Virus record (IMG/VR): IMGVR_UViG_3300036852_000075
Coordinates: 1-36,840 of that record
Strand: one strand, 5' to 3'
Source of the DNA: a virus
Length of the DNA: 36,840 nt
A program made the position numbers and the translations under genes. This document shows, in pieces, positions 19,907 to 30,033 of this stretch. The notes beneath the pieces were generated by a model. The model had not been told where the DNA came from. It did no database searches and saw nothing but the letters and a program-made list of their open reading frames with translations. Position 1 is the stretch's first letter, and every line of letters begins with the position of its first letter.

Positions 19907-20852
19907 GCCAGTTACTGAGCAGCCCGTGACACAGCCGGACGAGAGTTCTCTGTCGGATCACGAGGCGTCGTACAGCCGGGAGGCGCGCATCGACGCTCGC
20001 GAGAGCGATGAGCAGGCCACGCCAGCCGAAACGGTCACGCAGACGGTTGAACGGGACAAAGAGGGCAAGTTCGCCAAACCCTCACGGCATCGGGCGCCCA
20101 AAGACGTCGCTGGCCCTGCGGATGTCCCTCGGATTCGGGAACTGACGCGGAAACTGCGAGAGGCCGAGGCGGAAGTTGTCAAGCTGCGGACACCCGCCGC
20201 GTCGCCTGGCACCGCGGCAGCGTCACCGTCGGCCGAACCAGTCGCCAAGCCCTCGTGGAAGGCGTTTGAGGAGCAGATCGGAGAGAAATATCCCGATTGG
20301 GGCTCAGCCCAAGACGCCTACAACGATGCCCGCGACGAGTATCGGGAACAGCAAGCAAAGAAGGACTCGGCATCCTCGCAACTCACCACAGCCGACACAG
20401 CCGCCAAGGACGCGCGAAAAGCCGTCCTTGAGGACTATCACGCCCGGGTCACCGAGTTCGCCAAAGCGCACCCCGACTTCCAGCAGAAGTTGGATGCGGC
20501 CGGCGATCTGACGTTGCCGCCCGTGCTCACGGAGATGTTGATTACCGCTGACAACGGACCAGACCTTGTGTATCATTTGGCGACTCATCCCGATGTGCTC
20601 GATGAGATCGCCCTGCTCGCGGTGAATCTTCCCGTCAACGAGCAGTCCGTCGCGCTCTTACATCGTCGGCTCACGAAAGTTACCGCGCAGGCCGTGAACA
20701 CCGGATCGGTCGCCGGTACATTGAAATCGCTGACTCCGCCTCGCCCGCCTAATCCGGTGCGGACAGGGCCGATGAACACCGGGGATGACCCTCCCGGCGA
20801 TGAATCGTCCTTGGCCGAACACGAAAAAGCCTACGGACGTCGTCGCCGCTAA
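19884..20852 (+). CDS. Scaffolding protein
   Basis: This 322-residue acidic and helical protein lies between portal and coat genes, the classical scaffold position. The N-terminal 100 residues look disordered, 100-180 are helical and charged, and the end is basic (Tyr-Gly-Arg-Arg-Arg-Arg), as in P22 scaffold, whose C-terminal basic helix-turn-helix binds coat. The motif Asp-Glu-Ser-Ser-Leu-x-x-His-Glu-x-x-Tyr-x-Arg occurs twice, at residues 19-32 and 306-319. The gene starts within the portal gene. Confidence 0.75.
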   Translation: MEAPQAPEPVTEQPVTQPDESSLSDHEASYSREARIDARESDEQATPAETVTQTVERDKEGKFAKPSRHRAPKDVAGPADVPRIRELTRKLREAEAEVVKLRTPAASPGTAAASPSAEPVAKPSWKAFEEQIGEKYPDWGSAQDAYNDARDEYREQQAKKDSASSQLTTADTAAKDARKAVLEDYHARVTEFAKAHPDFQQKLDAAGDLTLPPVLTEMLITADNGPDLVYHLATHPDVLDEIALLAVNLPVNEQSVALLHRRLTKVTAQAVNTGSVAGTLKSLTPPRPPNPVRTGPMNTGDDPPGDESSLAEHEKAYGRRRR

Positions 20853-20881
20853 ACAGGTCGCTCCTCGGCTGGTAACGGCCG

Positions 20882-22117
20882 ATGTCCAATACGCTCATCA
20901 CCCCGACCTGGGTGACGAAAGATACCGCCGTCAACTTCAAGAACAACCTGAAGCTGATCGGGCGGTTCGATCGCACCTGGGAAAAGCAGAACTGGGGCAA
21001 CAAGCCCGAAGGCGCGCAGATCGGTGACACCGTGCAGGTCCGCATCCAGCAGCGGTGGCAGGTCAACGAAGGGCAGGCGCTCGTTCAGCAGTCGATTCTC
21101 AACCAGACCGTCCCGCTCACCATCAACCACCAGTTTCAGATCGGCATGGGGTGGTCGTCCGCACAGGACGCCCTTGAGATCGAGATGGTGCAGGACCGCT
21201 ACACCCGTCCTGCCGGCCGTCGCCAGGCGAACAAGTGGGATGTCGTCGCCGGCAAAGAGGTCTACAAGGCGGTCTATTTCTCGGCCGGGACGCCAGGTGT
21301 CCCGATCACGAGCAATCAGGTGTGGACCGATGCCGTCGCGTTGCTCCACAACAACGCCGTGCCAGACGGCGAGCTCGGCGCGGTCATTGATCCGCTGACC
21401 CAGTCGTCCCTCCTCGCGGCGAACTTCGCGTTGTTCAACCCGCAAGCGCAGATCGCCAAGTACTTCAAGACCGGCCAGTTTGCGGGCGCGGCCTTGGGTG
21501 TGGACGAGTGGTTCTGGGATCCGAACATGCCGATCCACACGACCGGCACGTTCACGACCGCCACACCGATTGTGGCTGGAGCCTCGCAGACCGGCTCGAG
21601 TCTGGCGCTGAGCGGCATGGGCACCTACGCGATGGTGGCCGGTGACGTGTTCACGATCGACGGCGTCTACGGCATCAACCCGGAAAGCTACGAATCGACT
21701 GGGCAGTTGCAGCAGTTCGTGCTGACGGCGGATCTCGCTGGAGTGACCACCGGCACCTTCTCGATCAGCCCGAGCATCATCCCGAGCGGGCAGTTGCAGA
21801 CGGTGACGAACTCTCCGGCGAACGGCGCGGCGATCACCTGGAAGGGTGCGACGGGCACGGTCGCCGCGACGATGGCGGCCACGCAGTCGCGGCAGTCGCT
21901 GATGTTTCACCCCGCGGCGTTCGCGTTCGCGATGGTGGATCTGCCCGACAGACTGGCCGGTGCGAATGCGAAAACGGTGGGCGATAAGGACACCAAGATC
22001 TCCATCCGCTGGTGCGAGCAGTTCAATATCCAGACCGATCAGTCGCCGTCACGCTGCGACACGATCGGAGGCTGCGCGGCGATATTGCCGTACTTCGCGT
22101 GCCGAATGTGGTCATGA
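20882..22117 (+). CDS. Major coat protein, P22-like
   Basis: The 411-residue product starts Ser-Asn-Thr-Leu-Ile-Thr-Pro-Thr-Trp-Val and contains Leu-Gly-Val-Asp-Glu-Trp-Phe, Ile-Asp-Gly-Val-Tyr-Gly-Ile-Asn-Pro and Asp-Gln-Ser-Pro-Ser-Arg, typical of the P22 coat family (HK97 fold with an inserted beta domain). It forms the icosahedral shell. The C-terminus Ile-Leu-Pro-Tyr-Phe-Ala-Cys-Arg fits the end of the family, so the gene is full-length. Its last six bases overlap the antisense HNH gene, and a recoded copy of its last codons lies beyond that gene. The ribosome site is weak for a major structural gene. Confidence 0.9.
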   Translation: MSNTLITPTWVTKDTAVNFKNNLKLIGRFDRTWEKQNWGNKPEGAQIGDTVQVRIQQRWQVNEGQALVQQSILNQTVPLTINHQFQIGMGWSSAQDALEIEMVQDRYTRPAGRRQANKWDVVAGKEVYKAVYFSAGTPGVPITSNQVWTDAVALLHNNAVPDGELGAVIDPLTQSSLLAANFALFNPQAQIAKYFKTGQFAGAALGVDEWFWDPNMPIHTTGTFTTATPIVAGASQTGSSLALSGMGTYAMVAGDVFTIDGVYGINPESYESTGQLQQFVLTADLAGVTTGTFSISPSIIPSGQLQTVTNSPANGAAITWKGATGTVAATMAATQSRQSLMFHPAAFAFAMVDLPDRLAGANAKTVGDKDTKISIRWCEQFNIQTDQSPSRCDTIGGCAAILPYFACRMWS

Positions 22118-22759
22118 TAAGTCCTGTGTTTGCTTGGACTTAACATGAACACCGGCATCGATCGCGCGCCGTATGTCCCAGCCAAGTCGCCACATCCGAT
22201 CGTGGACGGTGTGGCGGTTGGCTCCGAAGTGCAGCGCGAGATCTTTAACCGTTCCGGTAACGCCGTCCAAGGTGTAAAGCACCATTCGCCGCTGGTTGAT
22301 TCGCTGATCTTTGCGAGTCGCCCAGCGGCAATTTCCAGGTTTGTAGTTTCCGTCGTTGTCGATCCGTTCAAGAGTGTGCTTAGGCGTCGGCCGTGGTCCA
22401 AGGGCGGCGTAGAAGCGTTCAAACGAGTCTCTCCATTCCTGACAGACGGTAATCCCGCGAGCGCCGTAATTGGCGTAGGCGGCGCCTGTGGTCTTTCCGC
22501 ATCTGTTGATCATGTCTGCCCACAGACGATATTCCGGCGTGTGCCTCATGCCGTGTGTGGCCTTGGCTTTCAGCATTTCTCGTTTGATGCAGCCGCACGA
22601 GTGGGTGCGCGGCAGGTTTCCTCGTTGAACGTGTATCTCCGTTCCGCATTCGCAGCGGCAACGGTATCTCGGGTGTTTCGGATCGTTCGGGTCGCGCTCG
22701 AAGGCGACAACGGTCAAGCGACCGTGCTTTGTGCCCACGGGGAGAATCGGTTTAATCAT
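22112..22759 (-). CDS. AP2/HNH-type homing endonuclease, antisense insertion after the coat gene
   Basis: This 215-residue protein has zinc ligands Cys-Arg-Cys-Glu-Cys and Cys-Gly-Cys near 35-57, then the AP2/HNH signature Asn-Tyr-Gly-Ala-Arg-Gly-Ile-Thr-Val-Cys, Trp-x-x-Ser-Phe, Glu-Arg-Ile-Asp-Asn-Asp-Gly-x-Tyr and Asn-Cys-Arg-Trp-Ala-Thr near 100-150. A C-terminal HTH-like part (about 165-205) probably gives target specificity. It is read against the structural operon, with its stop inside the last coat codons, as expected of a free-standing homing nuclease. The + strand ORF opposite it is a shadow. Confidence 0.85.
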   Translation of the reverse strand: MIKPILPVGTKHGRLTVVAFERDPNDPKHPRYRCRCECGTEIHVQRGNLPRTHSCGCIKREMLKAKATHGMRHTPEYRLWADMINRCGKTTGAAYANYGARGITVCQEWRDSFERFYAALGPRPTPKHTLERIDNDGNYKPGNCRWATRKDQRINQRRMVLYTLDGVTGTVKDLALHFGANRHTVHDRMWRLGWDIRRAIDAGVHVKSKQTQDLS

Positions 22760-22763
22760 TCCG

Positions 22764-22781
22764 GCAATTCTACCCTACTTC
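22764..22781 (+). repeat. Recoded copy of six coat codons beyond the HNH gene
   Basis: GCA-ATT-CTA-CCC-TAC-TTC (Ala-Ile-Leu-Pro-Tyr-Phe) matches coat codons at 22079-22096, GCG-ATA-TTG-CCG-TAC-TTC. Thirteen of 18 bases agree and all five differences are synonymous. It begins four bases upstream of the HNH start codon. It is probably a remnant of the original coat 3' end displaced by the insertion. Confidence 0.6.
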
Positions 22782-22896
22782 GGCGTATTACCAGGTCGTC
22801 GACACCTAGGTGATACCGACTGTGGCGCGGTGGCCGCGGCGTAGTCGCGTGTGGGCTTGGTAACAGAACGCGCCAACAGCGTAGGAGATCAGGCAC

Positions 22897-23529
22897 ATGG
22901 CACTTGTAGAAACCACTCTCTCGGCCGCGTGTGCGGTCGATGCCAGACAGATCGTGGTCGCCTCCGCGACGGGCATCGCGATCGGCTTTGAAGTCCGCAT
23001 CAACGGCGAGATTTTCAAAGTGACGAAGGGCTACGTGGCCGGGGCGACGATCGTCCCCGTGTTGCGCGGTCAGGAGGGCACGCTCGCGACGGCGCATGCC
23101 GTGACGTCGCGGGTGGTCGTCGGGACGCAGGCCGACTGGGCGCAGCAGAATCCTCCCCAGACCGTGGCGCCCTATCTCATCGCCGGCCGAGCGCGCGTCG
23201 TGAACAGCTACGGCGCGTCAGGCGCGCTGGCGTTGCCGCCGGCGGGCGCCGATGCGTTGGCGCTGCTCAACGGGACGGTCGCGCTGGCGATGACGCTGCC
23301 GTTGCCGACGAAGGACTTGGACGGCTCGGTCATCACGATTGCCGGTGTGGGCTCAGCGGCGCACACCATCACGATTGCGGGCGGGGCCGGCGGGGGGGCG
23401 TTGGTGACGGCGACCCTCGACGCGACCGGACGATGCAATGTCTCGTACATGGCGATGGACGAGATTTGGGTGCCGTGGCCGTCTCCGCTGTCGGGCACGC
23501 TCACCAGTATCGACGTCGCGATGTCGTAA
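22897..23529 (+). CDS. Putative virion structural protein
   Basis: The ATG is preceded by GTAGGAGAT. The 210-residue product is beta- and alanine/glycine-rich with no charged helices: Val-Arg-Ile-Asn-Gly-Glu-Ile-Phe-Lys-Val and Val-Pro-Val-Leu-Arg-Gly-Gln-Glu-Gly-Thr in the first half, then Gly-Gly-Ala-Gly-Gly-Gly near 165. It resembles head-decoration or fibrous structural proteins found after the coat in related genomes. A strong hairpin follows the stop. Confidence 0.6.
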   Translation: MALVETTLSAACAVDARQIVVASATGIAIGFEVRINGEIFKVTKGYVAGATIVPVLRGQEGTLATAHAVTSRVVVGTQADWAQQNPPQTVAPYLIAGRARVVNSYGASGALALPPAGADALALLNGTVALAMTLPLPTKDLDGSVITIAGVGSAAHTITIAGGAGGGALVTATLDATGRCNVSYMAMDEIWVPWPSPLSGTLTSIDVAMS

Positions 23530-23534
23530 GCACG

Positions 23535-23578
23535 GTTGGGCGGCGCCACTCCAAGAGACGCCGCCCAACGCCTTTCAG
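23535..23578 (+). terminator. Strong hairpin after the post-coat gene, attenuator or terminator
   Basis: GTTGGGCGGCG (23535-23545) pairs perfectly with CGCCGCCCAAC (23559-23569), leaving a 13-base loop. The following CCTTTC is only weakly T-rich. As it sits mid-operon just after coat-level genes, partial termination to lower tail-gene expression, or an RNA processing/stability role, is likely. Confidence 0.6.
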
Positions 23579-23587
23579 TGAGGACAC

Positions 23588-24088
23588 ATGGCTACATCAG
23601 CGTTCAGTGACAGGTCGGTGCCAGGTGGCATCGTCCACAACCCCGCCGCGCCGTATGCGCGCGAAATGGCGAAATGGGAGATGGGCTACTCCCCGTTCGG
23701 TCCTCCGGGCCGTCCGCGGGAGACGGTCGGGTTTCAGCCGTGGCCGGCGCTTTTTTACAAGATGACGCGCAGCGCCACCAACGGCGAGTTCCTCGTGGAG
23801 CACTACAAGGAAGTCGGCAGCGACCGCGAAGCGTCCGAGGCGGAACGTCTGGGCTATCGCCTTGGACAGGCGGCGGCGATCGCCTACGTGGAGTCGCTGG
23901 AGCAGCAGATCGCGGTCGCCGCGGCTGAGCGTGCCTACAGCGAACGGACCATGAGCGACAAGGCCCGCGCAGAAGCCGCTGCTGCGGATGACGCGACGAG
24001 CGCCCATCTCCCCGAGGTGCCAGTGACCACGGTCAGGCGCCGCCGTGGCCCCAACACGCCGAAGACGTCGCTCACGCCAGAGGCGTAG
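23588..24088 (+). CDS. Hypothetical head-region protein, 166 residues
   Basis: The ATG follows GTGAGGAC. The N-terminal part is Pro/Gly-rich with Phe-Gln-Pro-Trp-Pro-Ala-Leu-Phe-Tyr-Lys-Met near residue 50. Then a long helix rich in Ala and Glu (about 75-125) and a basic Arg-Arg-Arg-Arg-Gly-Pro tail follow. Similar proteins occur between coat and tail-joint genes in related phages. Function is unknown. Confidence 0.6.
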   Translation: MATSAFSDRSVPGGIVHNPAAPYAREMAKWEMGYSPFGPPGRPRETVGFQPWPALFYKMTRSATNGEFLVEHYKEVGSDREASEAERLGYRLGQAAAIAYVESLEQQIAVAAAERAYSERTMSDKARAEAAAADDATSAHLPEVPVTTVRRRRGPNTPKTSLTPEA

Positions 24089-29416: not shown

Positions 29417-30033
29417 CGATGCAGCGCCTTTTCCAGCGGCCATTTCTTCACAAGCAGACGCTTCCAAAGCGTGGAGCGCGGGATGCCGCGTTCGTCAGCC
29501 CATTGGCTGAAGGTCTGCGTGCGGCCCTCAAATGTGATCCAGTGCGTGCTGCGTTTGTTGTTGGCCTGTTCCAGATGAGTGGCCCACCGGCAATTCTCCG
29601 GCGAGTACGGTCCGTTGTGGTTAATGCGATCGATCGAGTGTGCGCGCGTGGGCTTTGGACCCATGTCGCTAAAGAACGCCTTGAACGAGTCGCGCCAGCG
29701 GTCGCATACGAATATTCCACGCGCGCCGTAATTCGCGTACTCAGGCTCATTGGGATTAGAGCAACGAGACAGCATGCCCATCCATGCCTTGTGCTCGGTC
29801 GTTCTGCTACGACCATGTGTGCGTTTCAAGAGGCGCGCTTTGTCTCTGAGCATGCATCCACAGGATCGTGCATAGCCCTTGATCAATGCGGTAGCCGTGC
29901 GAGTGCAATCGGTGCCGCATTCGCATCGACACTGGTATTGGTGTTGACCCTTGGAGTTGCGCTCGACAAGGTGCGTTACCACGGTGAGGCGGTAAAACTG
30001 CGTGCCTCGAGTGATAGGTGGCAGTGCTGGCAA
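29413..30033 (-). CDS. AP2/HNH-type homing endonuclease, antisense insertion after the tail gene
   Basis: Read against the operon, it shares the architecture of the HNH gene at 22112: Cys-Arg-Cys-Glu-Cys and Cys-Gly-Cys knuckles, Asn-Tyr-Gly-Ala-Arg-Gly-Ile, Asp-Arg-Ile-Asn-His-Asn-Gly and Asn-Cys-Arg-Trp-Ala-Thr, then a NUMOD1-like helical C-terminus. The ORF is open to an ATG at 30120, but its first 29 codons lie antisense to the next gene; aligning to the other HNH protein favours the TTG at 30033 (206 residues). The stop overlaps the tail gene's stop. GC content is slightly lower than its neighbours. Confidence 0.8.
   Translation of the reverse strand: MPALPPITRGTQFYRLTVVTHLVERNSKGQHQYQCRCECGTDCTRTATALIKGYARSCGCMLRDKARLLKRTHGRSRTTEHKAWMGMLSRCSNPNEPEYANYGARGIFVCDRWRDSFKAFFSDMGPKPTRAHSIDRINHNGPYSPENCRWATHLEQANNKRSTHWITFEGRTQTFSQWADERGIPRSTLWKRLLVKKWPLEKALHR

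Follow-up and report, generated by a model that had tools for sequence, protein, structure and literature searches.

The 3′ end of a phage coat gene was found to be followed by an antisense HNH endonuclease gene and, just beyond it, by a second copy of part of the coat tail. The reading we favor, and judge reasonably probable from sequence comparison, is that a free-standing homing endonuclease replaced the coat 3′ end with a cut-resistant version and displaced the ancestral tail, in the manner of the mORFs of fungal mitochondria. The comparative data behind this reading are the reuse of the site by unrelated endonucleases, the single tail of island-free relatives, the re-spelling of inserted coat genes, the displaced tails, and the duplications at other genes.

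Organization of the coat locus

The window, i.e., the whole stretch of DNA that was analyzed, is a 36.8-kb virus record of a soil-type phage, and the features of interest are listed in Table 1. The coat protein ends in ..GCAAILPYFACRMWS*. The HNH gene is antisense to the coat gene, its stop overlaps the coat stop, and its ATG is at 22757-22759. Assignment to the HNH family was supported by phrog_374 and four further HNH/endonuclease PHROGs; the window HNH had no match in Pfam and none among solved structures in an HNH profile search, and nothing in the phage collection matched the window locus at the DNA level. A second antisense HNH gene in the window (29420-30033, minus strand) lies between two structural genes. 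It has 67% DNA identity to the first over 163 nt and carries TATAAT 7 nt before its TTG start, the same leaderless layout as in the first.

TABLE 1. Features at the coat locus, with positions in the window
Feature	Position	Strand	Remarks
Coat gene, 411 aa	20882..22117	+	PF11651, E 1.7e-18 (P22 coat family); phrog_283 major head protein, E 5.7e-52
Last 24 coat codons	22043..22114	+	Re-spelled synonymously in island-bearing coats, mildly in the window
Live repeat copy, A-I-L-P-Y-F	22079..22096	+	GCG ATA TTG CCG TAC TTC, in frame with the coat ORF
HNH endonuclease gene, 215 aa	22112..22759	-	phrog_374, E 1.4e-55; phrog_3377, E 2.3e-49
Putative displaced, decaying coat tail	22762..22809	+	Clear core 22764-22787 (AILPYFGV); gapped match to L001 coat tail
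Putative HNH -10 box, TAGAAT	22767..22772	-	7 nt before ATG (leaderless); presumed activity
Spacer before next gene	22810..22896	+	Aligns to the coat-to-next-gene spacer of HNH-free L029
Next structural gene, 210 aa	22897..23529	+	Directly behind the coat gene in island-free relatives

Coat relatives were taken from IMG/VR (best 80 of about 300). Among the window and these 80, an antisense HNH gene was found behind at least seven coats (the window, L037/L038, L077, L078, L082, L112, and L264) and a sense GIY-YIG gene, with GIY-YIG and NUMOD3 domains, behind at least three (L006/L007, L011, and L127). The GIY-YIG genes of L006, L011, and L127 each have their own promoter-like sequence and belong to an independent endonuclease family in the same niche. 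The HNH-free coats (L001 to L005, L069, L121, and many others) have one tail and then the next structural gene, with mostly 1 to 15 nt between the coat stop and the next ATG in island-free coats. The HNH gene is thus absent from relatives and is sited between conserved genes, as is characteristic of a free-standing HNH gene. In island-free coats the ribosome site of the next gene (GGAG) sits within the W-S codons of the coat, and any insertion must therefore bring a new ribosome site. The sole cellular-genome coat relative among the matches listed was L171 (QHWB01000093.1), an Acidobacteria gp6 MAG, which may offer a lead to the host.

Origin of the downstream copy

A sequence-only reading of the window had pointed to an 18-nt repeat flanking the HNH gene, and its coordinates, bases, and exclusively synonymous differences were reproduced exactly. 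The downstream copy at 22764-22781, just beyond the HNH ATG, reads GCA ATT CTA CCC TAC TTC. The two copies share 13 of 18 bases; the five differences are all synonymous (in the A, I, L, and P codons), and TAC TTC is identical. The same reading had named a six-codon match elsewhere as a chance control. ORF ends in the fetched loci were searched for an exact run of at least six residues within 800 nt downstream. Such a run was found for 24 of 4,618 ends (~0.5%), a count that includes several Arg-rich shadow frames and duplicate records and the window coat twice. The match is therefore uncommon but not decisive by itself. When scored with a profile built from HNH-free coat tails, the downstream copy reached 21.3 bits, a value attained by none of 1,066 equally long stretches of the window (ungapped P = 0.0005 versus random sequence).

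The relatives were used to judge which copy is the older. Over 24 nt, the downstream copy matched L001, L002, L053, and L055 at 20 positions and the live copy at 17. Extended to 33 HNH-free relatives, the downstream copy was nearer in 24 and the live copy in 7. The spacer behind the downstream copy gave global alignments with z 4.1 for L029 and z 3.8 for L003. On the strength of the single-tail island-free relatives, the count of 24 versus 7, and the L029 spacer alignment, the downstream copy is most plausibly the original tail, and the live end the one that has been altered. This agrees with the expectation of the sequence-only reading that HNH-free relatives would have an uninterrupted coat 3′ end with the next structural gene behind it. 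That reading had also taken HNH-less relatives without the downstream copy as grounds for rejection, which was set backwards: absence of a second copy is what a displaced tail would predict, and the second copy was indeed absent.

A longer candidate tail was seen in L037, whose HNH protein is 53% identical to that of the window and is encoded at the matching site. Between the HNH gene and the next gene, L037 reads ..GATIPYFSHLKAWSS*-T-ATG, and its coat ends in ..AAVLPYFALRAWS* (P = 0.001 to 0.011 for the displaced tail). Because common descent of the two islands is possible, the window and L037 tails are not fully independent evidence. In L077, L078, L082, L112, and L264 there are 27 to 30 nt from the HNH start to the next gene and no significant displaced tail. 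None was seen on inspection in the GIY-YIG islands of L006, L011, and L127, though their coats are re-spelled.

Synonymous re-spelling of inserted coat genes

Synonymous difference was measured on codon alignments as a fraction of the codons shared with the nearest island-free coats, in blocks of six codons. In inserted coats it was 0.55 to 0.81 in the last four blocks and 0.27 to 0.53 upstream, compared with 0.39 to 0.49 (~0.42) in island-free coats. The excess at the tail gave permutation P values of 4 × 10−4 to 5 × 10−5 (4 × 10−4 without the last six codons), and four control blocks were not significant. When the data were collapsed to 7 inserted versus 43 island-free coat clusters, P was 0.003 for codons -25 to -7 and <10−4 for the last 24. 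The HNH clusters alone gave P = 0.16 for codons -25 to -7 and P = 0.0025 when the last six codons were included; these last six no longer need to keep the ribosome site of the next gene after insertion. Much of the signal came from the GIY-YIG clusters (alone, P = 10−4), yet it is in these that the displaced tail was not seen. In the window itself the live tail is only mildly re-spelled, with an excess of +0.06 to about +0.15 relative to the remainder of the gene.

Individual comparisons were in keeping with the group result. L077 (HNH) and L069 (none) have coats that are 95% identical and end in the same 22 residues, yet their tails are spelled differently at 19 of 22 variable codons. Of 34 island-free coats, 26 use GGC for the first Gly of the conserved DTxGG motif, whereas none of the 7 inserted coats does (Fisher P = 2.9 × 10−4). 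The coat bodies of L077 and L078 are also 95% identical, whereas their HNH proteins are only 59% identical and their tails very different, a contrast expected if tail and HNH gene were exchanged as a block. Inserted tails differed among themselves by 0.65 to 0.68, as much as from island-free tails, and the spread of a shared immune tail among the islands was thereby ruled out.

Some coats may record the loss of an island. L003 has a spacer in place of an island and is re-spelled too (+0.22). In L181 (~450; incomplete coat) the tail equals that of the HNH-bearing L078 nearly codon for codon and no HNH gene is present. Both look like lost islands, probably so in the case of L181. At 6058-6110 of L013, a stretch of about 31 nt that follows the coat stop resembles the 3′-terminal codons of the HNH gene in the window (..KSTQVKDLS*), and the coat end is altered (FACIACS); this is probably an HNH deletion scar.

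Tail duplications at other genes

A scan of 168 distinct HNH loci revealed three beyond the coat site with a duplicated host-gene tail, and convincing cases amounted to only about 4 to 5 of the 168. A scan over all frames was swamped by GC-rich shadow frames, and restriction to real ORF ends still gave several GC-rich false positives. In L184 (1480-3242) the duplicated tail is that of an ATP-dependent DNA ligase: ..PRFARYIC.. is re-spelled in seven of eight codons, the differences being mostly synonymous, and the second copy, KDAPRFARYICKRAVEDIII, lies behind a sense HNH gene. L222 (2139-3163) and L244 (693-1322) each have a small gene with a sense HNH gene; a second copy of KYGDAQ.NI in the former is fused to the HNH C terminus, and a 32-residue match in the latter is likewise fused to the HNH protein. 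No further clear case of tail duplication came from 11 isolate phages that carry HNH relatives. The ligase and small-gene cases indicate that the layout is not peculiar to the coat gene, though it is found at a minority of HNH loci.

Alternative explanations

The most serious alternative is that the downstream copy reflects nothing other than the promoter of the HNH gene combined with coincidence. The extended -10 element of the HNH group is putatively TATGGTAAAAT, or its TAGAAT or TATAGT variants, 6 to 7 nt before the ATG, and read on the coat strand TATGGTAAAAT becomes ATTTTACCATA, i.e., I-L-P-Y, so that a coat-like peptide is possible without any duplication. In the window, the repeat part ATTCTACCCTA is the antisense of the putative -10 region, the TAGAAT box differs by a single base from the reverse complement of the usual coat sequence ATTCTTCCC, and 11 of the 18 repeat bases fall inside the element. 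Equivalents at matching spacing occur in L037 (TATAGT), in L077, L078, and L082 (TAAAAT), and in L112 (TAGAAT); the element is also present at L191 and, weaker, at L227, where the coat ends in residues other than ILPYF. However, with the 11 promoter-like bases fixed the ungapped match still had P = 0.011, and the gapped comparison, which reaches about 22809 and includes a stop-like CTAG, had P = 0.005 with promoter and ribosome-binding site fixed. The repeat is short, yet it is unlikely to have arisen by chance even with the promoter core fixed. Furthermore, the L037 match lies farther downstream, where ..KAWSS* immediately precedes the next ATG, and the duplications in L184, L222, and L244 have no promoter overlap. 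Promoter coincidence as the whole explanation was consequently considered unlikely.

A second possibility is an ordinary free-standing HNH gene, the tail differences reflecting only co-conversion from divergent donors and the lost ribosome site; neither selection for immunity nor tail displacement would be involved. Co-conversion of flanking sequence is a known effect of homing (PMC2988022). The constraint imposed by the GGAG in the W-S codons would lapse after insertion, and the mutual divergence of the inserted tails, as great as that from island-free ones, likewise suits this view. It was nevertheless thought rather improbable: the excess persists without the last six codons, both by sequence and by cluster; the tail proteins keep the residues of the resident coat, as in L077 and L069, and not those of a foreign donor; and relaxed constraint cannot raise divergence past the gene average. 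An intron or intein-like remnant, with the downstream copy as 3′ exon, would account for a coat-like stretch on each side of the HNH gene, and HNH genes are often intron borne. Against this, no Rfam intron or other RNA was found in 20800-23600 (E up to 1), the coat ORF is complete before the HNH gene, where it already has a stop codon and every conserved terminal residue, and the HNH gene is antisense to the coat. A group I intron-borne HNH was ruled out by the absent Rfam match and the antisense ORF, and remnants of this kind are highly improbable overall, in line with the preference of the sequence-only reading for insertion over an intron. Its central claim of a recoded-tail insertion was sustained in part, by the single-tail relatives, by the greater likeness of the downstream copy to them, and by the re-spelling of inserted coats as a group; it was weakened in that the window re-spelling is mild, the promoter explains part of the match, and most other HNH islands at the coat site have no significant tail.

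Proposed mechanism

In the favored reading, replacement by a homing endonuclease, we infer cleavage, the target position, immunity by re-spelling, joint movement of tail and gene, and promoter use. The HNH gene would colonize the conserved coat 3′ end together with a replacement for its final ~24 codons. The encoded protein would stay the same, while the altered DNA spelling would spare the resident phage from cutting. The ancestral tail would be pushed behind the endonuclease and decay there; in the window and L037 it would be overlapped by the HNH gene's own promoter. On homing into an island-free phage, the ordinary coat end would be cut, with a candidate position near the DTIGGVAAILPYF codons, and the break would be repaired from the island, replacement tail and endonuclease being copied together. 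A broader proposal, advanced here tentatively and with some doubt, is that phages may hold general tail-swapping homing elements, in which an HNH or GIY-YIG gene comes with a custom re-spelled 3′ end of an essential gene, the protein is preserved, the resident is immune, the native tail is ejected, and the end of the capsid gene and of others, e.g., DNA ligase, is colonized repeatedly and independently.

The usual answer to how an endonuclease beside its target avoids cutting itself is that the donor sequence differs. Here the difference is mappable: synonymous changes form a sharply bounded block over the final ~24 codons of a capsid gene that is essential, and in some cases the old tail can still be seen. 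The re-spelled block would point to the likely target and predict which phages are immune.

Comparison with known systems

The seg and mob genes of T4 are familiar examples of free-standing HNH and GIY-YIG genes sited between conserved genes of a phage, and intronless homing with co-conversion is described for them (PMC2988022); T4 segD lies antisense directly behind capsid gene 23. The recipient is assumed to become resistant because the donor allele replaces the target (PMC12724721). The coat island resembles these genes in its free-standing position between conserved phage genes. In T4, however, hundreds to thousands of bases separate the cleavage site from the endonuclease gene, whereas the candidate coat target abuts the HNH gene, and the passages of PMC2988022 on the T4 free-standing endonucleases do not mention a displaced gene tail. 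T4 mobA/gene 60 and Aeh1 mobE/nrdA (PMC2988022) are alike in that an HNH insertion alters the coding end of a conserved gene; those host genes are split in two, whereas the coat stays whole, with a complete tail before the insert. No phage example of the displaced-tail layout was found by full-text searching of open-licence literature, which does not prove absence.

The closest anatomy is that of fungal mitochondrial mORFs with C-terminal duplication, found in Allomyces macrogynus atp6 and in Glomus sp. atp6, atp9, cox2, and nad3 (PMC3630166). Their order is gene core, replacement C terminus with mostly synonymous differences, endonuclease ORF, and displaced native C terminus, the last of which stays closest to insertion-free relatives (PMC3630166). 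The phage layout matches as core, replacement tail, endonuclease, and displaced tail: a second 3′-end copy lies behind the endonuclease, short and decayed in the window, and is the nearer one to insertion-free relatives, by the same 24-to-7 count. In-phase mORFs are comparable with L222 and L244, where the displaced tails are fused in frame to the endonuclease. The mORFs differ in being mitochondrial and, in Glomus, in having LAGLIDADG or GIY-YIG endonucleases in the direction of the gene, versus an antisense HNH gene at a phage coat; moreover, the phage replacement tail is ~24 codons and the displaced tail short and decayed. If the proposed reading is true, phages would gain an arrangement described, within the literature found, only from fungal mitochondria.
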